From: an uncultured Tropicimonas sp.
GTDB taxonomy: Bacteria; Pseudomonadota; Alphaproteobacteria; Rhodobacterales; Rhodobacteraceae
Reading direction: 5' to 3'
Length of the DNA: 64,000 nucleotides
NCBI GenBank assembly: GCA_947495685.1
Contig: CANLZY010000012.1
Span: 1-64,000, forward strand
In this document: piece after piece, positions 5,785 to 25,047 of the stretch
How the letters are laid out: each line of letters opens with the position of its first letter
Numbering within the stretch: the stretch's first letter is position 1
Translations under genes and position numbers: made by a program
The notes under the pieces: generated by a model
Databases searched by the model: none
What the model was told of the DNA's origin: nothing
What the model saw: the letters and a program-made list of their open reading frames with translations, nothing else

Positions 5785-6055
5785 AACGGGTACGTCGGAA
5801 AATCGGCTGTCCTGCCCAGCGAGGCCAAGGTGTTCTGGGATGGATGTCTGCGCTTGTTGGGGAATCACGGCCTGCGAGAGGTCAAGCTGATCATCTCTGA
5901 CCAACATGAAACTCAGGGGGGGGCTGCTGCCAGAGTGCTGAGATCGACCATTCAAAGTTCGCCGTCAATGCTGTCTCAGGCAAACCAACCTCCCCAAGAC
6001 CGGCTCGTTTCAGGCGGCATTTGCTCCGGCTTTCGTTCTCAATTCCAACTCATTC
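5785..6055 (+). pseudogene. IS256-family transposase relic
   Basis: The translation LPSEAKVFWDGCLRLLGN followed by HGLREVKLIISDQHE and AAARVL corresponds to the central region of IS256 (mutator-type) transposases, which normally reads (G/S)LR.VkLVISDaHEG.kaA...vL. A frame change follows, after which GSFQAAFAPAFVLNS recalls the later RR.VsaAlr.aF segment. The catalytic D of ISD is kept, but the enzyme is incomplete on both sides. The relic ends at the stop codon of the TauE-like gene and so marks the left border of the catabolic island. Confidence 0.65.
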
Positions 6056-6898
6056 GACCAAGGCTGAGATTTGGCCGTAGAGATCCGCGAACATACGTGC
6101 GGACGTGAGCGCCAGGAAAAGCCCGAACGCCAAGCGCAGTGCGCGCCGCGGGATGGCGTGTGCGATGGATACGCCCACCCGCGCGAAGATCACGGTGAGC
6201 GGTACGATGACAGCCGCTGCCAGCAGATTGACGTAGCCCAGTGAGAACGGCATCAGCCCGTCGGCGCCCCAACCCGTGATCATGTAGATGACCGCACCGG
6301 GCAGCCCGATAATGAAGCCGATGGCGGCCGATGTCCCGACTGCCCGGCGTATGTCGTAGCCAAGGAAGTTCAACAGCGGCACGCAGACGGTACCGCCGCC
6401 GATGCCCATCATCGCCGAGACTGCCCCGGCGAGAACCCCCAGGCCAGCCCAGACCGGTTTAGGAAACGAGCGCGGCTCCGACTCCTGGCTCGGCTTGCGC
6501 AGGATCATGTCCAACGCAACCAGCGCCGCGACCACCGCAAAGACAGCCATCAGGATCAGGCCGCTCACGATCCCGCCGAGGGCGGCGCCGATCAGAACGC
6601 CGACCAGGATCGAGGGGCCCCAGAGCTTCAGCAGCCCATAGTCGACGGCACCCTTCTTGTGATGCCCCATTGCCGACGACAAGGAGGTGAACACGATGGT
6701 GGCGAGCGACGTCCCTACCGCAACCTGCATCGTAATCGCAGGCTCCATTCCCACGAGCGAAAGCGCGATATAGAGGGCGGGAACGATGACAATGCCGCCG
6801 CCGACGCCCAGTAGCCCAGCAAGCACGCCGCCGAAAACGCCCGCCCCGACGGCGACCGAGACAAGCGTCGTGAGTTGCCCCGCGTCGAGTCCTTCCAT
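6050..6898 (-). CDS. TauE/SafE-family sulfite/organic anion exporter
   Basis: This is a 282-aa membrane protein with about eight predicted transmembrane segments and the duplicated glycine-rich signatures of the family: GLLGVGGGIVIVPAL near residues 28-42 and MGIGGGTVCVPLL near 163-175. Relatives export sulfite, sulfoacetate or related anions, or act as permeases for small organic acids. It lies 79 bp downstream of the first FAH-family hydrolase on the same strand, so co-transcription is likely. It may carry the substrate or a product (possibly sulfite) of the island's pathway. The substrate is not shown by sequence. Confidence 0.85.
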   Translation of the reverse strand: MEGLDAGQLTTLVSVAVGAGVFGGVLAGLLGVGGGIVIVPALYIALSLVGMEPAITMQVAVGTSLATIVFTSLSSAMGHHKKGAVDYGLLKLWGPSILVGVLIGAALGGIVSGLILMAVFAVVAALVALDMILRKPSQESEPRSFPKPVWAGLGVLAGAVSAMMGIGGGTVCVPLLNFLGYDIRRAVGTSAAIGFIIGLPGAVIYMITGWGADGLMPFSLGYVNLLAAAVIVPLTVIFARVGVSIAHAIPRRALRLAFGLFLALTSARMFADLYGQISALVE

Positions 6899-6977
6899 GT
6901 GCTGTCCCTTCCGCGACGGCTTGGCAGAGACCGGCCCGGAGGGTTCCGCGCCGGCCGATAGTTCCAGATCGTCGGTC

Positions 6978-7664
6978 TCAGGTGACGCGCACCGTCAGAT
7001 CGCCAAGGCCGTCGACATGCACGATCATCTCGTCGCCTTTCTCCACCGGTCCCACGCCCGAGGGAGTGCCCGACTGGATCACGTCGCCTGGCGCCAACTC
7101 GAAATAGTTCGACAGGTAGGAGATCATCTCCGGCACTTTCCAGATCATCTGGTTCAGGTCACCCTCTTGCCGGACCTCGCCGTTGACCTTCAACTCGACG
7201 CGACCCTCGCTGAGGTGACCCACGCTTTCAACCGGGTGGATCGGTCCAATGGGGGCCGACCGTTCGAAGGCCTTCCCGATCTCCCAGGGGCGCCCCATCT
7301 TCTTTTGCTCGCCCTGCAGGTCCCGCCGTGTCATGTCCAGCGATACGGCATACCCGTAGACGTGGTCGAGCGCGTCCTCGACCGCGATGTTCGTCCCGCC
7401 GGATTTCAACGCAACGGCCATTTCGATCTCGTGGTGCACGTCCGAACTTTGAGTCGGGTAGGGGAACTCGCCCGAAGGGTCGAGGTTGTCAGGGTTTTTC
7501 TGGAAGAAGAAGGGCGGCTCGCGATCCGGGTCGTGCCCCATCTCGACGGCGTGAGCGGCGTAGTTGCGACCAATGCAATAAACGCGACGGACCGGGAACT
7601 CGGCGTCTGTGCCCACGATGGGCAGGCCCACGGGTTTTGGCGGGTCGATGATGAAATCTGTCAC
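6978..7664 (-). CDS. Fumarylacetoacetate hydrolase (FAH) family enzyme 1
   Basis: This is a 228-aa protein. The start is GTG at 7664, chosen because AGGAGG lies six bases upstream and the family N-terminus (TDFIIDPPKPVGLPIVG) begins there. The open frame continues upstream without family similarity. The divalent-metal ligands of the FAH fold are present: E79 and E81 in HHEIEMAVAL and D110 in YAVSLDMTRRD. The C-terminal GD.I.SGTP.GVGP motif is also present. Members hydrolyse acylpyruvates or decarboxylate/tautomerise 2-oxo acids. The gene is divergent from a GntR regulator, and the intergenic element at 7763-7782 is shared with the second FAH gene. The exact substrate is unknown. Confidence 0.85.
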   Translation of the reverse strand: MTDFIIDPPKPVGLPIVGTDAEFPVRRVYCIGRNYAAHAVEMGHDPDREPPFFFQKNPDNLDPSGEFPYPTQSSDVHHEIEMAVALKSGGTNIAVEDALDHVYGYAVSLDMTRRDLQGEQKKMGRPWEIGKAFERSAPIGPIHPVESVGHLSEGRVELKVNGEVRQEGDLNQMIWKVPEMISYLSNYFELAPGDVIQSGTPSGVGPVEKGDEMIVHVDGLGDLTVRVT

Positions 7665-7762
7665 GGAAGTCCTCCTCTGTATCCCATCTCCTTTAGTCAG
7701 AACTTGCATCGAGATCAATCCGAACCAATCCGAAAGATATTCATCGTCGTCGCTATGTTCGG

Positions 7763-7782
7763 CCCAATTTGATATTGGTTGG
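7763..7782. promoter_or_regulatory. Putative GntR operator between FAH 1 and its regulator
   Basis: The element reads CCCAATT-TGAT-ATTGGTTGG and contains the inverted repeat CCAAT-N5-ATTGG. An almost identical element in opposite orientation, with a 5-nt spacer, lies at 18628-18648 in front of the paralogous regulator. It ends 41 bp before the GntR start codon. A separate direct repeat CAATCCGAA/CAATCCGAA lies at 7716-7734. Binding by the local GntR proteins is inferred from position and conservation. Confidence 0.55.
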
Positions 7783-7823
7783 CTCCTGTGCGACACTCCA
7801 GCCAAACGCGGAAGAGACGATAG

Positions 7824-8510
7824 ATGCTGGAACGAATCGAAGCCAAGAATGCCGAAGCCCTGGCTCGTATCCGGGACTACATCCGCGAAGGGAATTTCAC
7901 CCAAGGGGACCGGATTCCTCCAGAGCGCCAGCTGATGGAGCAACTTGGCTTGAGCCGCGCGACCCTGCGGCAGGCACTCGAAGCGCTTGAACGATCAGGG
8001 GCGATCTGGCGCCACGTTGGGAAGGGAACGTTCATCGGCGACGGCCCCGAGAGCCTCGCTGTGGGCGAGGATACATTGGTAGATCTGGGCAGGCAGCTCA
8101 CGCCGATGCGCATGATGAACGCGCGTCTCTGTCTCGAACCGGCCTTGGCACGTGAGGCGGCGGTGCATGCCACAGGGGAGGCGATGGCTGCCATCAGTCG
8201 GACGACCAAGCAGGCGCGGGCCGCAGCCACATGGAGCGAATACGAGGCGCAGGATGACCACTTCCACCGCACCATTGCACAGGCGTCGGACAACGTGCTG
8301 CTTCTGTCCTTCTTCGACCAGCTGAACGGGGTGCGGCGCAAGGTGACCTGGGGCAGTGTCGAGCGGCGCAATGTGAAACCGCCGGCGGACCATTCCAGCT
8401 TCGACGAACACGAAGCGATCCTGCAAGCCATCGCAGACCGCGATGCCGACAGGGCGTGGAGCGCCATGCGAGATCACCTGAAGTCGGTTTCGGCGCGGCT
8501 GTTTCCATGA
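7824..8510 (+). CDS. GntR-family (FadR/FCD) transcriptional regulator 1
   Basis: This is a 228-aa protein. The N-terminal winged helix-turn-helix (about residues 10-75) has RIPPERQLMEQLGLSR, RQALEALERSG and IWRHVGKGTFIG. The FCD effector domain (about 95-220) has the metal-site residues expected in EYEAQDDHFHRTIA and, later, DEHEAILQAI and MRDHL. It is closely related to the regulator at 18655 (shared IWRHVG(K/R)GTF and DHLKSV motifs). It is divergent from FAH 1. FCD-type regulators usually repress and respond to organic acids, so it probably senses an intermediate of this island. Confidence 0.9.
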   Translation: MLERIEAKNAEALARIRDYIREGNFTQGDRIPPERQLMEQLGLSRATLRQALEALERSGAIWRHVGKGTFIGDGPESLAVGEDTLVDLGRQLTPMRMMNARLCLEPALAREAAVHATGEAMAAISRTTKQARAAATWSEYEAQDDHFHRTIAQASDNVLLLSFFDQLNGVRRKVTWGSVERRNVKPPADHSSFDEHEAILQAIADRDADRAWSAMRDHLKSVSARLFP

Positions 8511-8811
8511 GGCGACGCCCGACTGAATGCGGGCGCCGGCGACGAGAAACAATCGGCACTAGACCATCTTCTTCGGGCCGGGGGGATGGCTTTGGCGCAG
8601 ATACTTCATGAACTCAGGTCTGTCCTGGCCGCCGATTGACGGGTCGATACCTGCGACAGCGCGGGGACATCGTCGGGAGCAGCGGCCATGCCATGCTGAC
8701 CGGCGAGCTCCGAGTCGTCACGGGCGGCTGAAACGAAGTCAGGCCTTGGAAAACGGTCGACGCCGTGATCCAGAGGCCCTGACATTGAACAGCGAAAACT
8801 GGCTTCGGAAT
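8511..8811. other. Gap, no gene recognised
   Basis: About 300 bp lie between convergent genes. The minus strand carries a short open end translating as GIDPSIGGQDRPEFMKYL then RQSHPPGPKKMV and a stop at 8561. It looks like a C-terminal fragment of a protein but was not recognised. No clear terminator hairpin with a T-run was found. Confidence 0.3.
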
Positions 8812-10014
8812 CTACGCGCCCGCGCCGTCCCCGGCGGCGGAAGACTCCGAGCCTACGCCCTTGAGGTGCTCCATGGCAGCCTGTGCGCCGCCTGGCCGAT
8901 GCGGGACCCCGGCCTTGGCCAGCCCCATCTCCACCCCCGAAAGTGTCGCCATCAGCATCAGGTCGTTGAAATCGCCCAGATGCCCGATGCGAAACACCTT
9001 GTCCGCGACCTTGGACAGGCCATTTCCGAGCGAAATGTCATAGTGCTTCAATGTTGTCGCCCGGAAGGCATCGGCCGAGTGTCCTTGCGGGACCACAACG
9101 GCGGTGAGAACGCCCGATTCCTGCCCCTGCCGCGCGCACAGGACCTCAAGGCCCCACCCGCGAACGGCCGCGCGAGTGGCGGCGCCGTGGCGCGCATGAC
9201 GGGCGAAGACGTTGTCCAACCCCTCTTCATGCAGCATGTCGATGGCTTCGTTCAGGCCGTACAACAGATTGGTCGCGGGCGTATAAGGGAAGTACCCGGT
9301 TTCGTTCGGCCCCACCATGTCCTGCCAATCCCAATAGCCGCGCGGCATGGTAACGTCTTTCGAGTTCGCCAGTGCCCGCGCGCTCACGGCGTTGAAGCTC
9401 AGTCCGGGGGGCAGCATCAGTCCTTTTTGCGATCCTGAAACGCAGACATCGACCCCCCATTCGTCGAAGCGGAAGTCAATCGACCCGAGGCCAGAGATCG
9501 AATCAACCATCAGCAGGGCGGGATGGTTTGCTGCATCGATCGCCTTGCGTATCTCGGCAATCGGCGAAACCGATCCGGTCGAGGTCTCGTTGTGCACGAC
9601 ACAGACCGCCTTGATCTCGTGCGCCGTATCTTCCCGCAACCGCGCTTCGATACGATCCGGCTCCGCGCCGCCGCGCCAGTCGCCTTCGAGCAACTCCGGC
9701 ACCAGCCCGATCTTGCGCGCGATCTTGCTCCACAAGGCTGCGAAATGCCCTGTTTCGAACATCAGCACCTTGTCGCCGGGGGACACGGCGTTCACGAGCG
9801 CTGCCTCCCATCCTCCCGTTCCGGATGAGGGAAAGATGAAGACGTTCTGCCCAGTCTTGAAGATCGTCTTCATGCCCTCGAGAGCCTTCGTGCCCACCGC
9901 CGCGAAATCCGGGCCACGGTGGTCGATGGTCTGTTGGCCGATGGCCTTGAGAATACGGTCGGGCACCGCGCTTGGTCCCGGGATCTGCAGGAAATGTCGA
10001 CCGGCCTGACGCAT
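8812..10014 (-). CDS. Class V aminotransferase (serine/alanine-glyoxylate type)
   Basis: This is a 400-aa PLP enzyme. The start at 10014 is chosen because GGGAGG lies nine bases upstream; an upstream in-frame ATG at 10053 is less likely. It carries the family landmarks FLQIPGPSAVP at the N-terminus, SSGTGGWE (phosphate-binding), DSISGLGSIDF and the PLP lysine K197 in SGSQKGLM. It resembles serine-glyoxylate and alanine-glyoxylate aminotransferases, and is also related to ureidoglycine-glyoxylate and aspartate-glyoxylate aminotransferases. The neighbouring genes of the beta-hydroxyaspartate cycle are absent, so that assignment is not supported. It is divergent from the D-2-hydroxyacid dehydrogenase, across a strong palindrome. 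A glyoxylate or other 2-oxo acid acceptor is likely. Confidence 0.85.
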   Translation of the reverse strand: MRQAGRHFLQIPGPSAVPDRILKAIGQQTIDHRGPDFAAVGTKALEGMKTIFKTGQNVFIFPSSGTGGWEAALVNAVSPGDKVLMFETGHFAALWSKIARKIGLVPELLEGDWRGGAEPDRIEARLREDTAHEIKAVCVVHNETSTGSVSPIAEIRKAIDAANHPALLMVDSISGLGSIDFRFDEWGVDVCVSGSQKGLMLPPGLSFNAVSARALANSKDVTMPRGYWDWQDMVGPNETGYFPYTPATNLLYGLNEAIDMLHEEGLDNVFARHARHGAATRAAVRGWGLEVLCARQGQESGVLTAVVVPQGHSADAFRATTLKHYDISLGNGLSKVADKVFRIGHLGDFNDLMLMATLSGVEMGLAKAGVPHRPGGAQAAMEHLKGVGSESSAAGDGAGA

Positions 10015-10070
10015 CTTTCTCTTCCTCCCACGCGCCAGAAGACTGGCGCTCATCGCTGTTGATTAAACGT

Positions 10071-10088
10071 AATTATGAATTCATAATT
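10071..10088. promoter_or_regulatory. Perfect 18-bp palindrome, putative operator
   Basis: AATTATGAATTCATAATT is a perfect inverted repeat in the 136-bp divergent region between the aminotransferase (start 10014) and the FAD/Fe-S dehydrogenase (start 10151). It is much more AT-rich than its surroundings. FCD-type GntR regulators bind short palindromes of this size, and one is encoded in the same operon as the dehydrogenase (13034). It differs from the CCCAATT-type elements at 7763 and 18628, so a different regulator is likely. Assignment is inference. Confidence 0.6.
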
Positions 10089-10150
10089 CAAACTAGAGCA
10101 AAAGTGGACCTGCTTCAACGCTCCAAGTGCGGAAAGGAAGGTAAAAGCGC

Positions 10151-13021
10151 ATGCATGAGAACGCACGACTTCTCAGCCGGTTATCGTCGAGCGTTGCCGG
10201 GGCGGTCGCGACCGATCCTGCCTCGCGCGGGCGCTATGCATCCGACGCGTCGATCTACCAAATGCTTCCCGAAGCCGTGGTTCTTCCGCAATCGACGGAG
10301 GACGTTGAGGCCGCCATGAGCATCGCGCGGGAAGAGGGCATTCCCGTTCTGCCGCGCGGTGGCGGCACATCGCAATGCGGCCAGGCGGTGAACCGCGCCA
10401 TCGTTCTGGACAACACCCGACACCTGAACCGAATCCTCGACATCGATCCGGAAACCCTCACGGCGCGCGTCGAGCCAGGGCTCGTGCTCGATGAACTGAA
10501 CCGGGCATTGAAACCGCACGGCCTGTGGTTCCCCGTCGATCCCTCAACTGCCTCGCGCTGTACGCTGGGCGGCATGGCAGCGAACAATTCCTCGGGTGGC
10601 AAATCCCTGCGCTACGGCATCATGCGCGACAATGTTCGGGCGATTTCGGCCATTCTGCCGGATGGCACCAAGGCGCGGTTCAACCGGAATGATCCCGCAC
10701 CGGGGCCATACGCGGACCTGGTCGCTGACATGCGCGCCCTGGGGCGTCGCGAAGCCGGCGAGATCGACGCCCGTTTTCCGAATGTGCAGCGCCGCGTGGG
10801 GGGCTACAACATCGATGCCCTGACCGGCCCCGACGTGAACATGGCGCATCTTCTGGTCGGGTCCGAAGGCACGCTGGCCTATTTCACGGAGCTGGAGTTG
10901 AGCCTCGCCCACCTTCCGGGGGAGAAGGTCACCGGCATCTGCCATTTTCCGAATTTCTATGCCGCGATGGATGCCGCGCAGCATCTGGTCACGCTGACCC
11001 CGCAGGCGGTGGAACTGATCGATGACACGATGATCGCGCTTGGCCGCGACATCCCGCTTTTCCGCAAGACGATCGAAGCCTTTGTCGAGGGCGACCCTGC
11101 CGCGTTGTTGCTGGTCGAATTTGCCGAGGGCAGCGGAGAGGCCAACGCGGCAAAACTCGTGGCGCTGTCGCAAATGATGGGCGATCTTGGCTTTGCGTTC
11201 ACGGAAACGGGGGACAGGTGGGGCGGTCTGCTTCCCGTCATCGACCCGGCCCTGCAAGGCGCCATCGCGGAATTTCGAAAATCCGGCCTCAACGTCATGA
11301 TGTCGATGAAGGAGGCTGGCAAGCCGATCTCCTTCGTCGAGGATTGCGCCGTCGCCCTGCCCGATCTCGCCGACTACACGCAGGGCCTGACCGAGATCTT
11401 CGCCCGCCATGGCACCAAGGGCACGTGGTATGCACATGCCTCTGTCGGCTGCCTGCATGTGCGTCCCGTTCTCAACATGCGGCAGGACACGGACGTCAAG
11501 ACCATGCGCGCGATCGCCGAGGAGGCCTTTGATCTGGTCAAACGCTACAAGGGGTCCCATTCAGGCGAGCATGGCGACGGGATCGTTCGGTCGGAATTTC
11601 ATGAGAAGATGTTTGGTCCGCGCATCGTGAGGTCGTTCGAGGAGGTCAAAGCCCGCTTCGACCCCGAGGGCCTGATGAACCCCGGCAAGATCGTGCATGC
11701 ACCGGCCATGGATGACCGCCGGCTCTTCCGCTACGGGCCGGACTATGCGGTGCCTGAGTTCGAAACTGCGCTGGACTGGTCAGACTGGCCCGGATCGGGC
11801 GGCGGCTTTCAGGGTGCGGTCGAGATGTGCAACAATAACGGGGCCTGCCGAAAGCTGAAGGGCGGCGTGATGTGCCCGTCCTTCCGCGCCACGCGCAACG
11901 AGCGGGACGCGACGCGCGGGCGGGCCAACACGCTGCGCCTTGCGATCAGCGGCCAGCTGCCCGGTGGGCTGACCTCCGATGCGATGCAGGACACGATGAA
12001 GTACTGCGTCTCCTGCAAGGCCTGCCGCCGGGAATGCCCGACCGGTGTCGACATGGCACGGATGAAGATCGAGGTGCTGGCCGCAAGGCGCAAGGAGAAT
12101 GGCCTGACGCTGGCGGACAGGATCGTGGGATACCTGCCGCGCTACGCCCCGAACGCGGCAAGGCTCGCCTGGCTCATGAACCTGCGCAACAGAATCGGCC
12201 TGGTGCGCAAACTGACAGAGGGGATGACCGGCATTTCGCATCGCCGCGACCTGCCGGTCTGGTCGTCCAACCCGTTCCGAGATGACGAGGCACAGGACAG
12301 CGACCCGCAGGTGCTGCTCTTTGCCGATGTCTTCAATCGCTATTTCGAGCCCGAAAACCTGCGCGCTGCGGTCCGCGTCCTGCGCGCTGCGGGTCTGCGC
12401 GTGGCTGTGGCGCGAGACGGTTCGGGAAAGGCGCTGGATTGCGGGCGCACCCTTCTGGCGGTGGGCTGCGTGGAGGAAGCGCGCGTTGAGGCCCGCCGCG
12501 TGATCGACGCGACACGGGACGCCGTTGCCGCTGGCGTGCCGGTCGTCGGCCTCGAGCCCTCCTCGATCCTGACCTTCCGCGACGAGTTTCTCGCACTTTG
12601 CCCCGGCCCGGACGCAGATGCGCTGGCCATGGCGACCCACACTTTCGAGGAGTTCCTTGCCGCGCAGGCCGATCTCCCGTTGAAGCCCCTGACCTCCCCG
12701 ATCTACGTCCATGGTCATTGCCACCAGAAAGCACAGGACGCCGTAACCCCGATGCTCGAACTGCTCGGCCGGATTCCCGACGCAAAAGTGACCCTGATTG
12801 AAAGCGGATGTTGCGGCATGGCGGGCAGTTTCGGCTATGCGACGGACACGATCGACATCTCGCTGAAAATGGCTGAACTCGATCTTTTCCCGGCGCTGGA
12901 GGCCGCCCCGGAGGACGCTATTATCGTCGCCGACGGAACCTCTTGTCGCCACCAGATCGCGGATGGGACGCCCCGCCGGGCGGTTCACGTTGCGCGATTG
13001 CTGGACCAGGCCCTTGATTGA
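10151..13021 (+). CDS. Fused FAD- and Fe-S-binding D-2-hydroxyacid dehydrogenase
   Basis: This is a 956-aa protein that joins three modules. First is a FAD_binding_4 (PCMH-type) domain, about residues 35-250, with PRGGGTSQCGQ and the NNSSGGKSLRYG segment. Second is a FAD-linked oxidase C-terminal domain, about 260-530, with SVGCLHVRP and HSGEHGDGI. Third is a GlpC-like Fe-S/CCG part with cysteines C560, C566 and C575 and then C619-x2-C622-x2-C625-x3-C629P for [4Fe-4S] clusters, followed by HGHCHQKA and ESGCCGMAGSFG. Such fusions oxidise D-lactate, D-2-hydroxyglutarate or glycolate-like acids and pass electrons to the respiratory chain. It is divergent from the aminotransferase and followed 12 bp later by a GntR regulator. 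The substrate is not predictable. Confidence 0.9.
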   Translation: MHENARLLSRLSSSVAGAVATDPASRGRYASDASIYQMLPEAVVLPQSTEDVEAAMSIAREEGIPVLPRGGGTSQCGQAVNRAIVLDNTRHLNRILDIDPETLTARVEPGLVLDELNRALKPHGLWFPVDPSTASRCTLGGMAANNSSGGKSLRYGIMRDNVRAISAILPDGTKARFNRNDPAPGPYADLVADMRALGRREAGEIDARFPNVQRRVGGYNIDALTGPDVNMAHLLVGSEGTLAYFTELELSLAHLPGEKVTGICHFPNFYAAMDAAQHLVTLTPQAVELIDDTMIALGRDIPLFRKTIEAFVEGDPAALLLVEFAEGSGEANAAKLVALSQMMGDLGFAFTETGDRWGGLLPVIDPALQGAIAEFRKSGLNVMMSMKEAGKPISFVEDCAVALPDLADYTQGLTEIFARHGTKGTWYAHASVGCLHVRPVLNMRQDTDVKTMRAIAEEAFDLVKRYKGSHSGEHGDGIVRSEFHEKMFGPRIVRSFEEVKARFDPEGLMNPGKIVHAPAMDDRRLFRYGPDYAVPEFETALDWSDWPGSGGGFQGAVEMCNNNGACRKLKGGVMCPSFRATRNERDATRGRANTLRLAISGQLPGGLTSDAMQDTMKYCVSCKACRRECPTGVDMARMKIEVLAARRKENGLTLADRIVGYLPRYAPNAARLAWLMNLRNRIGLVRKLTEGMTGISHRRDLPVWSSNPFRDDEAQDSDPQVLLFADVFNRYFEPENLRAAVRVLRAAGLRVAVARDGSGKALDCGRTLLAVGCVEEARVEARRVIDATRDAVAAGVPVVGLEPSSILTFRDEFLALCPGPDADALAMATHTFEEFLAAQADLPLKPLTSPIYVHGHCHQKAQDAVTPMLELLGRIPDAKVTLIESGCCGMAGSFGYATDTIDISLKMAELDLFPALEAAPEDAIIVADGTSCRHQIADGTPRRAVHVARLLDQALD

Positions 13022-13033
13022 CAGGAAACGGAC

Positions 13034-13717
13034 ATGAGTCTTACCGAACGCATCAGACGCCCGTCCTTGCACGAGGAATTGGTTGAACGGCTGCGCAACC
13101 TCATTGTCGAGGATGCACTGAAACCGGGAGAGAAGGTGCCGGAGAAAGAGCTTTGCGCCTCCTTCGGCGTGTCGCGCACACCGTTGCGCGAGGCGCTCAA
13201 GGTGCTCGCCTCCGAAGGCTTCGTCGTTCTGAATGCCAATCGCGGTGCCACGGTCGCAAAGGTCACCCGCGAAGAACTGGACAGTACCTTCCCGGTGATT
13301 GCGGTGCTGGAACAACTGGCCGGCGAACTGGCATGCCACCATCTCGATGCGGCTGGCATCGCCCGGATTGAGGAACGTCACGCTGCGATGCTTGCGGCCT
13401 TCGCATCCCGCGACCGGACGGCCTATTTCCAGGCCAACCAGGATATTCATCAGGCCTTGATCCAGGGCGCGCAGAACGACGTGCTCGAAAGCCAGCACAA
13501 GCTTCTGGGGTCGCGAATCCGCCGGGCCCGCTTCCTGGCCAATCTGTCCGAAGAGCGCTGGGCGCAAGCGATCGAGGAGCATGAAGCCATGATGGAACGG
13601 CTTCGTGTGCGCGACGGAGAGGGGCTTGGTCAGCTCATGAAACGCCACATGACCAACAAGCACGCGGCGTTGCTCCGAGCGCTTGATGCCGAAGGCGGCA
13701 GCGAAGTGGCGCGCTGA
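13034..13717 (+). CDS. GntR-family (FCD) transcriptional regulator 3
   Basis: This is a 227-aa protein. The winged HTH (about 10-75) shows LHEELVERLRNLIVEDAL, KPGEKVPEKELCASFGVSR and TPLREALKVLASEGFV. The FCD ligand domain follows, with the metal-site pattern in NQDIHQALIQGA and EEHEAMMERL. It lies 12 bp behind the dehydrogenase gene and so is co-transcribed with it. It belongs to a different FCD branch from the two FAH-linked regulators. It likely controls the divergent promoter that carries the AATTATGAATTCATAATT palindrome, which would make it autoregulated. The effector is probably a hydroxy acid or oxo acid; that is inference. Confidence 0.9.
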   Translation: MSLTERIRRPSLHEELVERLRNLIVEDALKPGEKVPEKELCASFGVSRTPLREALKVLASEGFVVLNANRGATVAKVTREELDSTFPVIAVLEQLAGELACHHLDAAGIARIEERHAAMLAAFASRDRTAYFQANQDIHQALIQGAQNDVLESQHKLLGSRIRRARFLANLSEERWAQAIEEHEAMMERLRVRDGEGLGQLMKRHMTNKHAALLRALDAEGGSEVAR

Positions 13718-13725
13718 TCCGCCGG

Positions 13726-13762
13726 CCTGCCGGTTGTCTGGATCACCCGGACCACCGGCAGG
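13726..13762. terminator. Hairpin between convergent genes
   Basis: CCTGCCGGT (13726-13734) pairs perfectly with ACCGGCAGG (13754-13762), and the loop carries a smaller imperfect stem (GTCTGG/CCGGAC). It sits between the GntR gene and the Ldh2-family gene, which converge here. There is no U-tract, so it may be a bidirectional hairpin that helps factor-dependent termination or 3'-end stability. Confidence 0.45.
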
Positions 13763-13770
13763 TCGACATG

Positions 13771-14847
13771 TCAGCCTGCCTTGTCGTCTGCGAAGGGCGC
13801 CGCCAGCCCGCAATCGGCGGCCAGCGCATTCAGGTCGCGACGCAGGGCGGGATTGAGTGACACGCCGTCCTCGCGGCGGGCCGCGGCGAAAGCCGTCTTG
13901 CCATCTCCGGGAAGGCGCACCGGATCGTGCCCCGGGAGCGGCTCTGAGGCCCGCATCTCGTCAAAGACGCGTGCGGCAGCCTCCGCAAAATCGTCACCAA
14001 TGCCAAAGGCGGCGGGATCGAGCGCGACAACGAACTGCCCCGTATTGGTCGAAGATGTCGTGTCCTTGGTGAAGTCCACCACATCCGATCCAAAGGCCGC
14101 GCCATTCAGGATCCCGGCCATCAGGCCGACTGCAACAGACAGTCCGAACCCCTTCGGCCCCCCGATCGGCAGCAGGAACCCTTCGGATTTTCGGGCGGGA
14201 TCCGTCAGCGACTTGCCATCCCGCCCGACCATCCAGCCTTCGGGCATCGGCTCGCCCTGTTGCAGCAGGGTCTTGATCTTGCCCATCGCTGCCACGGTCG
14301 TGGCCATGTCGAAAACAAACGGGTCGGGTCCGGCGGCCGGAGCCGAAAAGGCGATCGGATTGGTACCCAGAAGCAGGTCCGTGCCACCATATGGCGGCAC
14401 GTGGTTTGCACTGCCCACGGCAGCGGCCATCCCGAGCAGTCCGGCCTCGGCCTGAGGGCGAACATAAAGGGCCAGGGGCCCCGCGTGGTTCCCCCGGCGC
14501 ACGCCGACCCAGCCGATCCCGGCAGCGCGCGCCTTTTCGATGGCAAGGTCGCGGGCGGCTGCCATGGCGAGGTGGCCGAGGCCGTTGTCGCCATCGATGA
14601 CAGCGGTTGCGAGCGACTCATGTGCCACGGATACGGATGGGGTTGGATTGCATCCCCCTCCAGCCAACCGCGCCAGATATTGACGCAACCGGAACACGCC
14701 GTGTGTGCCGTATCCGAAGATGTCGGCTTCGACCATGAGAGACGCGACCTTGGCCGCATCCCCCTCCGGCACGCCCTGTGATCCGAGCGCCTGGGCCACA
14801 AAATCGCGCAGGGCTCCGGCAGAGATGGTACTTGGCTCAGTGGTCAT
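13771..14847 (-). CDS. Ldh2/MDH2-family NAD(P)-dependent 2-hydroxyacid dehydrogenase
   Basis: This is a 358-aa protein of the malate/L-lactate dehydrogenase type 2 family (YjmC, ComC, AllD, DpkA relatives), not the Rossmann-type LDH. Visible landmarks are ADIFGYGTHGVFRL with the catalytic His at 49, GDNGLGHLA, VRRGNHAGPLA, NPIAFSAPA and GGPKGFGLS. Members reduce 2-oxo acids or oxidise L-2-hydroxy acids, including malate, ureidoglycolate and sulfolactate; the substrate cannot be chosen from sequence. It is the last gene of a five-gene operon and overlaps the permease gene by 11 bp. Its stereochemistry is expected to be opposite to that of the FAD-dependent dehydrogenase at 10151. Confidence 0.85.
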   Translation of the reverse strand: MTTEPSTISAGALRDFVAQALGSQGVPEGDAAKVASLMVEADIFGYGTHGVFRLRQYLARLAGGGCNPTPSVSVAHESLATAVIDGDNGLGHLAMAAARDLAIEKARAAGIGWVGVRRGNHAGPLALYVRPQAEAGLLGMAAAVGSANHVPPYGGTDLLLGTNPIAFSAPAAGPDPFVFDMATTVAAMGKIKTLLQQGEPMPEGWMVGRDGKSLTDPARKSEGFLLPIGGPKGFGLSVAVGLMAGILNGAAFGSDVVDFTKDTTSSTNTGQFVVALDPAAFGIGDDFAEAAARVFDEMRASEPLPGHDPVRLPGDGKTAFAAARREDGVSLNPALRRDLNALAADCGLAAPFADDKAG

Positions 14848-15703
14848 CGCCGCCCACCCGTTCCTTGTGCCAGAACACGACCTTTCGCTGCGTCCAGGTC
14901 ACCGTGGCGTAGACCGCCAGGCCGACAAGACTGAGGTAGAGGATGAGTGAAAAGACGCGTGGCGTATTGAGCTGCGAGGCGGCGACCCGGATCAGTTCGC
15001 CAAATCCCTTGCCGCCGCCCAGAAACTCGCCCGTGATCGCGCCGGCCATGACACCAACCGCGCCGATCTTGAGACCAGTGAAGATCTGCGGCAGGCCCGT
15101 CGGCAGTTTCATCTTGAACAGCGTTTGCAACCGGCTTGCCCCCATCGTCTTGAAGAGCATCCGGGCGTTTTCATCGGCGGCGTGAAGCCCGGCGGCGGTG
15201 CCGACCACGATCGGGAAGGTCGCGATGAAGGCTGCAAGAGCCACCTTGGACTCGATCCCGAACCCCAACCAGGCAACGAACAGCGGTGCGAAGGCCACTT
15301 TCGGCATGGTATCGATGGCCACGAGGTAGGGCATCACGGCCTTTTCACCGAAGGCCGTCTCGCCCACGAGGATCCCGAGTGAAAACCCGAGAGCAATGGC
15401 CAGTGCGAAGCCGTAGATCACTTCCTTGAACGTGATCCAAAGCGCTCCGAGCATGTAGCCACCGGTCAGGAGGTTCTGACCGACAAAGATCATGTCCTCC
15501 AGCGTTTCCAGAGGCGAGGGCAGGATGATCGGCGAAACAAGCTCGAAGCTTGTGACGATTTGCCAGCAGGCGATGAAGACCAAAAAGACAGCGCTCATGG
15601 CGATCCATCGCGGAACGGAGTCGATGAAGTGGACTTCCTGCACCCAGACGGTGTCTTGCCCTGCACCGTCAGCGGAAGATTGGTTGGCCTGAGCGTCGGT
15701 CAC
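14837..15703 (-). CDS. ABC transporter permease, NitT/TauT (SsuC) type
   Basis: This is a 288-aa integral membrane protein with about six transmembrane helices. The start is GTG at 15703, overlapping the stop of the ATPase gene as GTGA. The EAA loop that contacts the ATPase is visible as KTMGASRLQTLFKMKLP TGLPQIFTGLK, around residues 185-215. It belongs to the permeases of taurine, sulfonate, nitrate and pyrimidine-precursor importers. Together with the adjacent ATPase and binding protein it forms a complete importer, which presumably feeds the substrate to the flanking FAH and dehydrogenase enzymes. Confidence 0.9.
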   Translation of the reverse strand: MTDAQANQSSADGAGQDTVWVQEVHFIDSVPRWIAMSAVFLVFIACWQIVTSFELVSPIILPSPLETLEDMIFVGQNLLTGGYMLGALWITFKEVIYGFALAIALGFSLGILVGETAFGEKAVMPYLVAIDTMPKVAFAPLFVAWLGFGIESKVALAAFIATFPIVVGTAAGLHAADENARMLFKTMGASRLQTLFKMKLPTGLPQIFTGLKIGAVGVMAGAITGEFLGGGKGFGELIRVAASQLNTPRVFSLILYLSLVGLAVYATVTWTQRKVVFWHKERVGGDDH

Positions 15704-16509
15704 ATGTCTTCTCCCTTGTCCAGAAGGCCACGGATATGGTCGACGATTTCGCCGAACTTCGGCGTTGTCATCATGTCGAGCGTGCGTGGCCGAGGCAGGT
15801 CAACCTCGATGATCTCCGCCAACCGGCCAGGGCGCGGTTTCATGACGACGATGTCGTCCGACAGGATCACGGCCTCCTGGATCGAATGGGTGACCAGGAA
15901 AGCGGTCGCGTGTTGTTCACGACAGATCCGCTGCAACTCCATGTTCATCATGTCACGCGACAGTTCGTCGAGCGCGCTGAAGGGTTCGTCCAGCAACAGA
16001 ACAGCCGGCTCGGTGATCAGCATCCGGCAGATCGCGGCGCGCTGCGCCATGCCCCCCGAAAGCTCGTTCGGGTACACATTCTCGAACCCCTCGAGGCCCA
16101 CCATTTCCAGAAGCTCGTGCGCCGATTCGATGGCCTTTTGGGCGGCCGCCTTGCCGTCGCGTATTTCGATCGGAAGGACGATGTTTTCAGCCGCTGTTTT
16201 CCATGGGAAAAGCGTTGCCTGCTGGAACATCATCCCGATGTCGTGACGGGGGCCGGTCACTGGCTTTTCCTGAAGAACCACCCGCCCCTTGGTGGGCGGA
16301 ATGAGGCCTGCCATTATCTTGAGCAGCGTTGATTTCCCGCATCCGCTCGACCCGATAACGGATGTGAAACTCCCCTTTCGCAAGGTCAGGCTGACATCCT
16401 CCAGCGCGACCACGAGGTTGCGCGCGTAGGTCTTGCTGACGTTGGTCAACTCGTAGACCGGCGCGCCTTTGGGCGCGCCGGAGGAGTCTTGGGCAAATGC
16501 CGCGGTCAT
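15700..16509 (-). CDS. ABC transporter ATP-binding protein, NitT/TauT (SsuB) type
   Basis: This is a 269-aa ATPase started at the ATG at 16509, which overlaps the stop of the binding-protein gene (TAATG). The upstream open frame has no family similarity. It carries Walker A GSSGCGKST, Q-loop MMFQQATLFPW, signature ELSGGMAQRAAI, Walker B AVLLLDEPFSALD and the switch His in LVTHSIQEAV. It energises import with the permease downstream. Methionine replaces the usual Gln in the LSGGQ-like signature region (LSGGMAQR), which is normal for this subfamily. Confidence 0.92.
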   Translation of the reverse strand: MTAAFAQDSSGAPKGAPVYELTNVSKTYARNLVVALEDVSLTLRKGSFTSVIGSSGCGKSTLLKIMAGLIPPTKGRVVLQEKPVTGPRHDIGMMFQQATLFPWKTAAENIVLPIEIRDGKAAAQKAIESAHELLEMVGLEGFENVYPNELSGGMAQRAAICRMLITEPAVLLLDEPFSALDELSRDMMNMELQRICREQHATAFLVTHSIQEAVILSDDIVVMKPRPGRLAEIIEVDLPRPRTLDMMTTPKFGEIVDHIRGLLDKGEDM

Positions 16510-17534
16510 TATTGGGCCGCCTCGCTTCCGATAGCGGCGAATTCGTTGGTCCACGCCGCAGACAAATCGTCGAGAGCCTTGGGAATCTCGCCCCCGGCAA
16601 CGAGCGCTTCCTGCCACTCCTGCCAGACTGCTTCGGGATACCAGCCGAGATGCTTGCTGTCGTCGGTCGGTATGGTCTTGGAGCGCACCGCGTCGAACAG
16701 CGCGGACTGGAATTCCTTGTCCTCGCCTTCCTGCGGGTTGCCAGCCGCCAGATGCTCCAGGACCGTGTCACGGTTGGCGTCGTCCAACGCAAAGGCGTGG
16801 CCACGAGCGAAAGCACGGCTCCAGGCTTCCACGAGTTCGCGATCGTCGCGGATGGTGTCGCCCAACGTGGCAATGCCATTCCCGAAGAAGCGCGCGAACT
16901 CCGAAGGTGTGATGTCGCGTACCGCCATGCCACGCTGGTTCAGGATGGCCGTGTCTGCTGTCGAGGACGAATAGGCGGAGATCGCGTCGCTGAGGAAGGC
17001 CGCCGTCGCCGGGCCGCCGTCGCCGACGGTCAGGAATTCGAAATCCTCGCCCGCCGTCATGCCTACACTGGACATCACGTTGCGGGCAAAGCCCACTTCC
17101 GCGCCGTCTGCCGTGCCGGTGCCGATCACCTTCCCCTTGAGCTCCTCGACGCTTTGGATCTCGGAGTCCTGCTGAACCGCGATTCCAAAGTTGCTGCGCG
17201 CGGCCACGTTGTAGATGTGGACGGCATCCACGCCACGTGAGCGCGCCGCGATCAGGGGGCCGGGACCGGGCCGGCCGAAGTGCGCCTGACCTGCCGACAG
17301 GGCTTGCAGCACCGCGCCAGAGCCGTTGATCGCCTCGACCGTCACCTTCAGACCTTCTTCCTCGAAATACCCTTCACCGATGGCGACGAAGACGGGGAAC
17401 GAGTTGATGGCGGACGGGCTGGGCTGTACGAATGTGATCTCGCGCAGGTCCTGTGCGAAGGCCACCGTTCCCATCAGGCCGACAGCGGGAATCGCCGCGA
17501 GTACCGATGCCGTGAATGTTCTTCTCTTGATCAT
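16509..17534 (-). CDS. ABC transporter substrate-binding protein, NMT1/SsuA type
   Basis: This is a 341-aa periplasmic protein with a signal peptide (MIKRRTFTASVLAAIPAVGL, cleavage near AFAQ-D). The mature part shows the SsuA/THI5 pattern: PVFVAIGEGYFEEEGLKVTV, followed by GSGAVLQALSAGQAHFG and LKGKVIGTG. It binds an anionic or aromatic small molecule for the importer; relatives bind taurine, alkanesulfonates, nitrate and thiamine precursors. A GGGAGG ribosome site precedes the start. It is 60 bp downstream of FAH 2 and 1 bp overlapped with the ATPase, within one operon. Confidence 0.9.
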   Translation of the reverse strand: MIKRRTFTASVLAAIPAVGLMGTVAFAQDLREITFVQPSPSAINSFPVFVAIGEGYFEEEGLKVTVEAINGSGAVLQALSAGQAHFGRPGPGPLIAARSRGVDAVHIYNVAARSNFGIAVQQDSEIQSVEELKGKVIGTGTADGAEVGFARNVMSSVGMTAGEDFEFLTVGDGGPATAAFLSDAISAYSSSTADTAILNQRGMAVRDITPSEFARFFGNGIATLGDTIRDDRELVEAWSRAFARGHAFALDDANRDTVLEHLAAGNPQEGEDKEFQSALFDAVRSKTIPTDDSKHLGWYPEAVWQEWQEALVAGGEIPKALDDLSAAWTNEFAAIGSEAAQ

Positions 17535-17594
17535 GATCTTCTTTCCTCCCTGGTGTGTTCGCCCCCTTGTCGCGCTCCTCCGCGCGGGGGCCTT

Positions 17595-18515
17595 TCAAAC
17601 GGCGCGCACGGTGTTCTCGAGCGTTCCGATTTCGGAAATTTCACAAACCACCGTGTCTCCGTCTTTCAGGAAACAGGGCGGGTCCATTGCGTAGCCGACG
17701 CCCGACGGGGTGCCGGTGGCGATCATGTCGCCGGGCTCCAGCGTCAGGCCTTCGGAGACCGAGGCAATCAGCGTCGGAATGTCGAAGATCATGTCCGCCG
17801 TGTTGCCAAGCTGGCGTTGTTCGCCGTTGACCTTGCAGCCTATCGATAGGGCGTGCGGATTCTTGATCGCCTCGGCAGTGACGATCCAAGGACCGATTGG
17901 GCAGGATCCGTCGAGCCCCTTACCCTTGAAATACTGTCCACCATGACGGCGCTGGATGTCTCGGGCCGTGATGTCGTTCAGAATAGTATAGCCGAAAACG
18001 TGATCCATGGCATCAGCCCTGGAAATGTTGCGGCCGGGCTTGCCGATCACGACCGTCAGTTCGACCTCGTAATCGATCGCCTCCGAAACCTCCGGGAAAA
18101 TCAGAACATCGCCACTAGGGGGCACGATCGCAGTGGGCGGCTTGGTGAAGAAAACCGGGTACTCCGTCACACCGATCTTCTGTTTCTGCGCCCTTTCACC
18201 CTCTGCGATATGTTCGGCATAGTTGCGTCCAACGCAAAACACGTTCTTACGTGGATCGGGGATCGGTGCGAGGGTCGGTGCATCCGCCGGAGCCAGCGCG
18301 CCGACATGTTTGCCTTCCTCTGCTTCGGCCACGAGGCCACGCAGCACCTCCAGCGCTTCCGGGCCACCAGCGATCAGCTGTTGCATTGACCCCGGGCGCA
18401 ATGCGTCTGCGGCAGGAAGATTGGCCGCAGCCCTTGCGATGTCCAGTTTGGCGCCGCTCTTGAGAATGGCGACGCAGGTTGGCCGCCCATTTAGATGGAT
18501 CGTAGCAAGTCGCAC
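17595..18515 (-). CDS. Fumarylacetoacetate hydrolase (FAH) family enzyme 2
   Basis: This is a 306-aa protein with a GTG start at 18515, supported by AGGAG six bases upstream. An N-terminal extension of about 85 residues precedes the FAH core. Metal ligands are E150 and E152 (YEVELTVVIG) and D181 (NDITARD), with FTKPPTAI and ATGTPSGVGYA also conserved. It is longer than FAH 1 and belongs to the common ureidoglycolate-lyase/acylpyruvate-hydrolase-like group, whose members cleave or hydrate 2-oxo-acid derivatives. It heads the operon FAH-SBP-ATPase-permease-Ldh2 and is divergent from GntR 2, repeating the arrangement of FAH 1 and GntR 1. Confidence 0.88.
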   Translation of the reverse strand: MRLATIHLNGRPTCVAILKSGAKLDIARAAANLPAADALRPGSMQQLIAGGPEALEVLRGLVAEAEEGKHVGALAPADAPTLAPIPDPRKNVFCVGRNYAEHIAEGERAQKQKIGVTEYPVFFTKPPTAIVPPSGDVLIFPEVSEAIDYEVELTVVIGKPGRNISRADAMDHVFGYTILNDITARDIQRRHGGQYFKGKGLDGSCPIGPWIVTAEAIKNPHALSIGCKVNGEQRQLGNTADMIFDIPTLIASVSEGLTLEPGDMIATGTPSGVGYAMDPPCFLKDGDTVVCEISEIGTLENTVRAV

Positions 18516-18627
18516 TCGGCACTCCTCCCTCGAGCTTTGGTTCGCATCGGCCGCAGTTCAAAAAACTACGAGTTTCTGCAGAATCTATCTTTTCATCGAC
18601 TTTCCCCCCGCATACGTTTTCGATCAA

Positions 18628-18648
18628 CCAACCAATCAGTGAATTGGG
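18628..18648. promoter_or_regulatory. Putative GntR operator between FAH 2 and its regulator
   Basis: Read on the minus strand, this element is CCCAATT-CACTG-ATTGGTTGG. It matches the element at 7763-7782 in all 16 arm positions, with a spacer one base longer. It ends six bases before the start codon of GntR 2, so binding there could block that gene directly and also affect the divergent FAH 2 promoter. The orientation relative to the regulator is reversed compared with the first copy. Operator function is inferred. Confidence 0.55.
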
Positions 18649-18654
18649 TGAGTC

Positions 18655-19347
18655 ATGACCAAGACAATTGACCTCGCGCAGGGCCTGCGTGATCTGATCG
18701 AGACAGTCGGATATCGGCACAACGACCGAATGCCGCCGGAACGCGAGCTGTGTGAGATGCTTGGCACAACGCGCAACAAGCTGCGTGGTGCGCTGGCCGA
18801 ACTGGAGGCGGAAGGCCGAATCTGGCGCCATGTAGGTCGCGGGACTTTTGTCGGAGCGCGACCCGTCCTGAACCTCAAGGACGTCACCTATCTTCGCGAT
18901 CAGATCAAACCGGCCCAAGTCGTGGCAGTACGGTTCTCCATCGAAGCAGAATTGAGCCGACTGGCCGCGCGCCATGCCAACAATACGGATCGCGACCAAA
19001 TGCAACTCTGCGTCGAACGCTGCCGTGCTGCCGAGGACTGGCGCGCCTACGAGGCATGGGACAACAACCTGCACCACGCCATCGCGCGCGCGACACACAA
19101 CCAGTTGTTCCTGTATTTCTTCGAAACGCTGAACTCGGTCCGCAGATCGATCGTGTGGGGCCAAGCACGCAAGACGCGCAAGCCGGCGAGCGACTATTCC
19201 AGCTACATCGAACACGACGCCATCGTGGCGGCCATCACTGCAGGCGATTGCGATCTTGCCGCGCGCACGATGATCGATCACCTGAAATCCGTCTACTCAC
19301 GCGTTTTGCCTGAAAGCATTCCGACGGAGCATCGAACAGGCCAGTGA
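18655..19347 (+). CDS. GntR-family (FadR/FCD) transcriptional regulator 2
   Basis: This is a 230-aa paralogue of GntR 1. The wHTH has NDRMPPERELCEMLGTTR, KLRGALAELEAEGR and IWRHVGRGTFVG. The FCD domain has RAYEAWDNNLHHAIARA, FFETLNSVRRSIVWG, YIEHDAIVAAI and MIDHLKSVYSRVLP. The parallel motifs in GntR 1 and the nearly identical upstream elements imply overlapping regulons. It is divergent from the FAH 2/ABC/Ldh2 operon. The C-terminus is some residues longer than in GntR 1. An IS6-family relic follows, marking the right border of the island. Confidence 0.9.
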   Translation: MTKTIDLAQGLRDLIETVGYRHNDRMPPERELCEMLGTTRNKLRGALAELEAEGRIWRHVGRGTFVGARPVLNLKDVTYLRDQIKPAQVVAVRFSIEAELSRLAARHANNTDRDQMQLCVERCRAAEDWRAYEAWDNNLHHAIARATHNQLFLYFFETLNSVRRSIVWGQARKTRKPASDYSSYIEHDAIVAAITAGDCDLAARTMIDHLKSVYSRVLPESIPTEHRTGQ

Positions 19348-19389: not shown

Positions 19390-19825
19390 AAGGAGGTGTT
19401 TGTGAAGATCACTGGTGAGCGGCGCTACCTATGGTAGGGCTTCGACCACGAGGGCGAGGTCGTGGAAGGCTTCGTCACAAGGCGGCGGGACAAGAAGGCC
19501 GCTTTGGAATCTCCAAGAGACATCAATGAAACGGTACGGCCGGCCGCAAATCTCCATCAAGGACAGGCTTCGGTCCTTCGCGTCGGCGTTGAAATATATC
19601 GGCGCGCTCGATCGCCAGAGCACTGGGTGCTGCCTCAGTGATCGGGCGGAGAACTCGCACTTGCCATTCCGACGACGAGAACGGGCGATGCAACCCTTCC
19701 GGCGGCTGCAAGGCCCGCAGATGCTCGTCGCCGTCAAGGTCTTCAATCAATTCAACTCTGAGCGCAGGCTCCTTTCCAGAGAAAACTCCGAGAAAAACCG
19801 CGCAGTGGCTCTTGCTCGGTGACCG
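19390..19825 (+). pseudogene. IS6-family transposase relic
   Basis: Two frames together give the C-terminal two thirds of an IS6/IS26-type transposase. First come a degraded RRYLW, a stop and then GFDHEGEVVEGFVTRRRDKKAA. After a frame change come MKRYGRPQISIKDRLRSFAS, ALKYIGALDRQSTG and the hallmark RAENSHLPFRRRERAM, then FRRLQGPQMLVAVKVFNQFN. The catalytic ITTDGLRS is altered to SIKDRLRS, so it could not be active even apart from the frameshift. Terminal repeats were not found. Confidence 0.8.
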
Positions 19826-20875: not shown

Positions 20876-21080
20876 CGTGATTGCTCCAGTCTATTGTTCC
20901 TTCAGCGGGACAAAGAGTTCATTTTCGTTGCAATTGTCAAATCTACAGGACTACCCTACTCAGGTAAAGCACCTTCGTCTGAACTCGATTCCCTGCGGCA
21001 TCGTGTGCGGACGAGCAAAGGTTTCGGGCGTGGGAAGGAGGACCCCGCGCTTCGAGAGAAGCAAAAAAGGGAGGACACCA

Positions 21081-22058: not shown

Positions 22059-22066
22059 GCCAATCC

Positions 22067-22093
22067 GCCCGTGCCGCTCACTTCGGCACGGGC
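22067..22093 (+). terminator. Intercistronic stem-loop after tctC-like gene
   Basis: GCCCGTGCCG (22067-22076) and CGGCACGGGC (22084-22093) form a perfect 10-bp stem with a 7-nt loop, 8 bp after the binding-protein stop and 22 bp before the tctB-like start. There is no U-tract. Hairpins in this position often protect the 3' end of the binding-protein mRNA so that it is made in excess over the membrane subunits. That role is inferred. Confidence 0.6.
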
Positions 22094-22115
22094 ATTCCCC
22101 TCAACGGGCAAATCC

Positions 22116-22595: not shown

Positions 22596-22596
22596 C

Positions 22597-24249: not shown

Positions 24250-24258
24250 GACGACATC

Positions 24259-25044: not shown

Positions 25045-25047
25045 GCC

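Follow-up and report, generated by a model that had tools for sequence, protein, structure and literature searches.

Two locally regulated catabolic modules in a Tropicimonas island and a possible route for a small organic acid via glyoxylate

The window, a stretch of 64,000 nucleotides from an uncultured Tropicimonas sp. (contig CANLZY010000012.1, positions 1 to 64,000), carries an island of ~13 kb at positions 6050-19347 that consists of two neighbouring, locally regulated modules and not of one operon. Module A groups a class V aminotransferase (AT), a predicted FAD/Fe-S D-2-hydroxyacid dehydrogenase and the regulator GntR2. Module B groups an Ldh2-type dehydrogenase, an ABC importer, the FAH-family protein FAHB and the regulator GntR3; to it a second FAH-family protein (FAHA), a TauE permease and GntR1 are added below. 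The two modules may cooperate in the catabolism of a small organic acid via glyoxylate, perhaps via oxalate, a reading that we regard as plausible and place somewhat short of probable. The gene grouping itself is beyond chance: the same genes recur jointly in other genera, and both operator types are private to the island.

An earlier note on this DNA had described a complete TauT-type importer together with a set of intact catabolic genes, seen as a single island. Its inventory is correct: an open-reading-frame check finds twelve intact frames where expected, and Pfam confirms PF01925 TauE, two FAA_hydrolase proteins, Aminotran_5, Ldh_2, an ABC permease and ABC ATPase, an NMT1-type binding protein, three FCD-GntR regulators, and FAD_binding_4, FAD-oxidase_C and Fer4 within one protein. 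The gene order is TauE permease and FAHA (minus strand), GntR1 (plus), AT (minus), dehydrogenase and GntR2 (plus), Ldh2, ABC permease, ABC ATPase, binding protein and FAHB (minus), and GntR3 (plus). The absence of a match to a named pathway also holds, as the models for taurine, ureidoglycolate, sulfolactate, glycolate, beta-hydroxyaspartate and D-2-hydroxyglutarate all score below cut-off. The single island does not hold: because modules A and B each occur without the other in relatives, it is not one indivisible unit. Separate occurrence, which the note had named as evidence against its proposal, was thus found in part when the gene set was sought in relatives. The shared-route idea survives in a two-module form because the modules co-occur beyond chance even when unlinked, and the candidate for an undescribed route becomes an uncharacterised catabolic unit that is modular and composite, not a single closed pathway.

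The window genes were mapped onto 78 named loci holding a dehydrogenase relative, module B being scored where three or more of five genes (Ldh2, permease, ATPase, binding protein, FAHB) lie within ~10 kb. AT is found near the dehydrogenase in 63 of these loci, and in 48/50 of those with at least 6 kb on both sides. Module B is present in 17 loci and not in the other 61, some of which are cut by contig ends; L024 and L079 hold FAHA alone, with no module B. When both modules are present, B is placed relative to A in at least three arrangements: to the right (L029), inverted to the right (L034) or to the left (L025). The gene order in Ruegeria runs AT, dehydrogenase, GntR2, Ldh2, importer, FAHB, GntR3, FAHA, an acyl-CoA synthetase and PanE.

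The family sample comprises 248 genomes, our own and 247 relatives, one per genus; it is assumed to be the same across searches since the handles agree. The binding protein has matches of 66-84% identity in 7 relatives and of 44-58% in 11 more, while the dehydrogenase is found in 31 genomes of the sample and the Ruegeria-type synthetase in 48. Module A is present in 5 of the 7 module-B genomes (0.88 expected, P=0.0004; P values for co-occurrence are hypergeometric over the 247 relatives and ignore phylogeny), the two others having B without A. In four of these five genomes (G035, G083, G125, G175) the modules are widely separated or sit on different contigs. None of the 11 genomes with the more distant importer has module A.

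The transporter context of module A was compared among 31 dehydrogenase loci with identity of at least 64% and flanks of at least 6 kb. A TRAP transporter is present in 2/14 loci with module B vs 16/17 without it (Fisher 7.6e-6), a hydratase plus CoA-transferase in 1/14 vs 11/17, and the synthetase in 7/14 vs 0/17. An adjoining module B mostly takes the place of the TRAP transporter that otherwise accompanies module A. This exchange within otherwise conserved module-A loci bears on the idea that the modules follow independent routes and merely live together, their co-occurrence reflecting accessory regions rich in genes and a lifestyle common to marine bacteria of versatile metabolism instead of a shared substrate. 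Such an explanation agrees with the separate operators and regulators, with the many genomes in which either module occurs alone and with the insertion sequence (IS) fragments on both sides of the island; we nevertheless find it unlikely, as it accounts neither for the exchange, nor for the variety of arrangements in which the modules adjoin, nor for the lack of a link between module A and the more distant importer.

Each module possesses its own putative operator. Operator A, the perfect palindrome AATTATGAATTCATAATT (10071-10088), occupies the divergent promoter region in the gap between AT and the dehydrogenase. It is the single such site in the 5,636,304-base genome at up to 2 mismatches, and, with up to 3 mismatches allowed, 35/37 relatives tested have it no more than 200 bp upstream of the dehydrogenase. 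The exceptions are L079 and L041, the latter having a late-starting dehydrogenase match and a copy of the operator at 9924. In this locus (~9924-10795) the match begins at 10795 after a separate 294-amino-acid frame, which may reflect a broken gene or an assembly error.

Operator B occurs twice: as CAACCAAT-N5-ATTGG between FAHA and GntR1 (7764-7781, minus strand) and as CAACCAAT-N6-ATTGG between FAHB and GntR3 (18629-18647, plus strand). The pattern CAACCAAT-N4-8-ATTGG has exactly these two sites in the genome and its reversed control none; for both motifs, A and B, 0 occurrences are expected in shuffles of the window. The short form ACCAAT-N4-8-ATTGG is present in all 25 module-B loci listed, in 24 of them within the FAHB/GntR3 gap. 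L154 has it before FAHA only, L025 and L152 have an additional copy before FAHA, and L032, L041 and L070 also have one within the binding-protein gene. Elsewhere it is found in 2/61 other dehydrogenase loci and in 1/13 loci with the more distant importer. Since operator B is found at both the FAHA/GntR1 and FAHB/GntR3 gaps, FAHA is predicted to belong to the module B regulon, though in the window it is located beyond AT, and the TauE gene behind it probably does too. The position of the operator upstream also makes the ATG at 7709 the most likely start of FAHA. Each module would be controlled by its own FCD-GntR regulator at its own operator.

In module A, AT (8812-10053, minus strand) and the dehydrogenase (956 amino acids, 10151-13021, plus strand) are transcribed divergently, and the FCD-type GntR2 identified by Pfam (13034-13717, plus strand) follows, as it does 3' of the dehydrogenase in most Rhodobacteraceae-type loci. 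A literature search found no paper that combines four or more of five terms for this gene set; for module B together with oxalyl-CoA it brought up a single paper, on oxalate in spinach. One of the closest known systems is the beta-hydroxyaspartate cycle (BhcABCD/BhcR). AT belongs to the sister group of BhcA, and in Tateyamaria module A lies near bhc genes; yet AT stays below the BhcA cut-off (445.4 bits vs 650) and forms a separate clade, the 31 AT-type and 6 BhcA-type rows of a 37-row tree being separated with 100/100 support (with a long-branch warning). Moreover, the island is devoid of bhcBCD, and BhcC is unmatched in our own genome, in a search that is weak for want of a positive control. 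The top solved relative of AT is a serine-glyoxylate aminotransferase (352.1 bits), as compared to 150.7 bits for PucG, and a role with glyoxylate is suggested by these similarities. Two loci, L117 (a Tateyamaria plasmid) and L040, place module A ~10 kb or less from bhc genes and with a TRAP transporter; L117 also encodes a malonyl-CoA synthase. Several Bradyrhizobium-type loci (L043-L050, L067, L076, L080) have two adjoining module-A aminotransferases belonging to two clades of the tree.

The dehydrogenase (PF01565, PF02913, Fer4) shares with YdiJ-type D-2-hydroxyglutarate dehydrogenases a FAD domain, a GlpC-like Fe-S domain and the catalytic residues. It differs from them by its low score with the YdiJ equivalog model (494.9 bits vs a cut-off of 1350), which rejects this assignment, and by its different, conserved gene partners. 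Its assignment as glycolate oxidase GlcD is also rejected (201.7 bits vs an equivalog cut-off of 567.9). The Arg-His-His-Glu-His catalytic set of metal-dependent VAO-fold D-2-hydroxyacid dehydrogenases is present as R376, H429, H436, E473 and H474, corresponding to Arg386, His434, His441, Glu475 and His476 of human D2HGDH; the correspondence was drawn from motif spacing and HMMER alignments to D-LDH and relatives, the human chain itself being outside the alignments, and the roles of the human residues are those given in passages of PMC7801405. These five residues and Y427 are kept in 25/25 aligned relatives, and R438 in 24/25. Y427 is the counterpart of D2HGDH Tyr432; a Tyr at this pocket position is, in the same passages of PMC7801405, a feature of D2HGDH that D-LDH and GlcD do not have. 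The counterpart of Thr390 is a Leu (L380) in the window protein. The pocket therefore seems suited to a substrate with an anionic far end, not to glycolate or lactate. YdiJ, of the same architecture, is active on D-2-hydroxyglutarate only, according to section 3.6 of PMC9504171.

Module B proper begins with Ldh2, of the malate/lactate dehydrogenase type (13771-14847, minus strand; PF02615, 356.7 bits), followed on the same strand by the ABC permease (14837-15703; PF00528, 94.9 bits), the ABC ATPase (15700-16509; PF00005, 120.5 bits), whose start is most likely at 16509 rather than 16617 as judged from the sequence, the NMT1/SsuA-like binding protein (16509-17534; PF09084, 98.1 bits) and FAHB (17595-18515; PF01557, 260.4 bits), a YisK-like protein with an N-terminal extension; GntR3 (18655-19347, plus strand; PF07729 and PF00392) closes the island. 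At the other end are the TauE/SafE-family permease (6050-6898, minus strand; PF01925, 170.7 bits), located 79 bp 3' of FAHA on the same strand and probably in one operon with it, the YcgM/FAHD1-like FAHA (6978-7709, minus strand) and GntR1 (7824-8510, plus strand; PF07729 and PF00392), of FCD type and a paralogue of GntR3 (43% match in the GntR3 region, L087 row). Matches to the TauE permease, of 39-45% identity, are found in 4/78 of the relatives' loci (L034, L060, L069, L079).

The importer belongs to the superfamily of TauABC and SsuABC and is accompanied by a TauE-type permease, as in taurine and alkanesulfonate uptake systems. Its scores are however far below the cut-offs, and taurine uptake is rejected: the binding protein reaches 20.4 bits with the taurine model (cut-off 304.25) and 71.5 with SsuA_fam (163.5), the ATPase 188.4 (357) and the permease 90.1 with TauC (342). 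No desulfonating enzyme (TauD, Xsc, SuyAB, CuyA) is encoded among the twelve island genes, to which this search was confined, and so no sulfonate-cleaving step is seen in the island. A sulfolactate route, prompted by Ldh2 (223.5 bits, cut-off 500) and TauE, was likewise discarded, there being no lyase within the island.

No curated equivalog cut-off is reached by Ldh2. Its top models are two ureidoglycolate dehydrogenases (236.2 and 228 bits), which brings in a purine-ureide route where Ldh2 would be that enzyme, a FAH protein the ureidoglycolate lyase and AT the ureidoglycine-glyoxylate aminotransferase. In Aminobacter and Defluviimonas, relatives of AT at 62-63% identity do lie in uric-acid/allantoin clusters, next to FAH-family genes. 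Nonetheless this route is very improbable: both Ldh2 scores fall short of the AllD-type cut-offs (356 and 496.2), PucG lies far below the serine-glyoxylate aminotransferase among the relatives of AT, and neither the island nor the labelled module-A and module-B loci hold an amidohydrolase.

Ldh2 relatives at 47-53% identity sit in sugar-acid-like clusters. A non-phosphorylative sugar-acid route would have Ldh2 form a 2,4-dioxo-3-deoxy acid, and a FAH protein split this by hydrolysis into pyruvate and a short 2-hydroxy acid, which module A would oxidise and transaminate. The top curated model of FAHB, 2,4-didehydro-3-deoxy-L-rhamnonate hydrolase, points in this direction despite its score (191.7 bits, cut-off 500), as do a distant FAD/Fe-S relative near rhcF in Haloarcula and DenD, of the erythronate dehydrogenase family, which accompanies module A in 7/78 loci. 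We hold this proposal to be decidedly unlikely, for the island has no dehydratase, lactonase or kinase, Ldh2 enzymes target the hydroxyl next to the carboxylate and not that at C4, and the predicted dehydrogenase pocket looks unlike the lactate/glycolate type.

The nearest solved and modelled relatives of FAHA and FAHB are of the FAHD/OAT1 type (YcgM, YisK, FAHD1). FAHA is closest to chains 6j5y (289 bits) and 4maq (241), then YcgM 1nr9 (161) and FAHD1 (154), and FAHB to 8sky (243 bits), which we take to be YisK. Unlike the housekeeping members, both are encoded locally and appear co-regulated with an importer, and the YcgM equivalog (PRK10691) was rejected for FAHA (170.5 bits, cut-off 201). 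Passages of PMC10825186 describe YcgM and YisK as efficient tautomerases of oxaloacetate that have a slight decarboxylase activity besides. These similarities underlie an oxaloacetate-centred alternative without oxalate. In it, D-malate or a closely related compound would be the substrate, with the FAD/Fe-S enzyme and Ldh2 oxidising the two enantiomers to oxaloacetate. Both FAH proteins, as oxaloacetate tautomerases, would clear the inhibitory enol-oxaloacetate, and AT would form aspartate; the closest curated model of AT is indeed the aspartate enzyme BhcA, and the same passages report a clustering of FAHD genes with genes for predicted D2HGDH/L2HGDH. This alternative deserves attention and is still somewhat unlikely: YdiJ, the nearest characterised FAD/Fe-S enzyme (a distant one), showed no action on D-malate (section 3.6 of PMC9504171), one of the two FAH proteins would be superfluous, and the association with oxalyl-CoA synthetase and PanE would be left unexplained.

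This association may tie module B to oxalate. The acyl-CoA synthetase of the Ruegeria loci has oxalate-CoA ligases as its closest solved relatives (418.8, 397.9 and 354.3 bits), ahead of malonyl-CoA synthetase (199.7). It is found in 6/7 module-B genomes (1.36 expected, P=0.00025), in all six of which PanE adjoins it, and in 5/11 genomes with the more distant importer (P=0.041). PanE2 of Methylobacterium extorquens is an oxalyl-CoA reductase. PanE relatives are present in 107/337 class-level genomes at E<=1e-50, and among 20 chosen from the strong PanE matches the synthetase adjoins PanE in 18 (exceptions L212 and L221). A Phyllobacterium plasmid (L237, 7001-14972) arrays PanE (54.5%), FAH, BhcR, sucCD, frc and a thiamine pyrophosphate (TPP) enzyme, which embeds a FAH gene in a cluster of oxalate type. 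According to passages of PMC11323563, the regulator BhcR responds to glyoxylate. Strain SC52 has a FAH gene and an ABC importer beside the synthetase and PanE. The likeness to oxalate assimilation by oxalyl-CoA synthetase and oxalyl-CoA reductase thus lies in the pair that goes with module B in relatives. The difference is that this pair is outside the window and that the importer, FAH and Ldh2 are additional; our own genome has only a synthetase match at C13 (64% to the Ruegeria gene, 700.8 bits), unlinked to the island and with no module gene found around it.

Put together, the favoured two-module reading would proceed as follows. A small hydroxy- or oxo-dicarboxylate would be imported by the TauT-type ABC importer, a hydroxy-dicarboxylate would be oxidised by Ldh2, and FAHA and FAHB would act on the 2-oxo (or 2,4-dioxo) acid so formed by tautomerisation, decarboxylation or hydrolysis. 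The module A dehydrogenase would oxidise a D-2-hydroxy acid whose far end is charged, supplying the same 2-oxo acid pool; the dicarboxylate preference is suggested by the pocket residues. In most relatives the chemistry would reach or adjoin oxalate, which the oxalyl-CoA synthetase and the PanE-type reductase would convert to glyoxylate. AT would catalyse transamination between an amino acid and glyoxylate and be served by this oxalate/glyoxylate node. The oxalate step and the exact substrate are conjecture. A narrower version, quite unlikely as it stands, has the Ldh2 product, a dioxo- or hydroxy-oxo-dicarboxylate, cut hydrolytically by FAH to oxalate and pyruvate (C5, 2,4-dioxoglutarate) or to oxalate and glycolate (C4, oxaloglycolate). 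The oxalate would pass through oxalyl-CoA to glyoxylate, the amino acceptor of AT for a matching amino acid, and module B would regenerate the co-substrate of module A in an undescribed route.

Several points weigh against the favoured reading. The protein activities are predictions from sequence, and the match of the dehydrogenase to a dicarboxylate pocket is only partial, the Asn443 counterpart being Arg (R438) and Lys401 having no clear counterpart. The 65% identity line that delimits module-B genomes was drawn after the gap in the binding-protein matches was seen, and 8/14 module-B loci of the TRAP contrast are from Ruegeria, without which the contrast is 2/6 vs 16/17. Dehydrogenase and synthetase are barely associated (10/31, 6.02 expected, P=0.051), and G125 holds both modules without the synthetase. 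In our own genome, there is no close PanE (best 49.5 bits) and no oxalyl-CoA decarboxylase above cut-off (best 183.8 bits vs 739.4), so that an oxalate route would be incomplete there unless another enzyme serves.

Were the favoured reading true, a catabolic unit would be spread across Rhodobacteraceae, with module A also reaching Rhizobiales and Burkholderiales, and the named operators would let its regulon be tracked. FAH-family proteins, commonly viewed as repair or aromatic-pathway enzymes, would be linked to oxalate/glyoxylate metabolism, and a testable pathway would emerge from several genes now widely misannotated as serine-glyoxylate aminotransferase, FAD-linked oxidase or taurine transporter.

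The island looks accessory, because in G007, the sole same-genus genome of the sample, neither the module B binding protein (E<=1e-60) nor the module A dehydrogenase (E<=1e-150) was found. The IS256 and IS6 relics reported earlier at its flanks are present as fragments, both below the Pfam cut-offs: an IS256/Mutator-type transposase fragment on the left (5812-5919, plus strand; PF00872, 19.0 bits, cut-off 21) and an IS6/IS240-type one on the right (19526-19729, plus strand; PF13610, 21.2 bits, cut-off 27).

Further partners of module A in relatives are a PRK06144-type enoyl-CoA hydratase, a class III CoA-transferase and a GlcG-like protein. In L009-L024, L118, L120, L150 and L171, module A is accompanied by a TRAP or MFS transporter and by this hydratase and CoA-transferase, a set that is a second uncharacterised version of the route. 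The right-hand neighbour of the island (19931-26769) is a separate cluster comprising LysR, a TctCBA-type transporter, SDR and a PRK08199-type TPP enzyme (812 bits vs a cut-off of 539); it adjoins the island but does not belong to it in the loci examined. Elsewhere in the window, positions 655-3280 encode a pair of adjoining GTPase-like proteins with MMR_HSR1/dynamin-type matches, and positions 31520-34363 an ELWxxDGT-repeat protein with RTX-like calcium-binding repeats.

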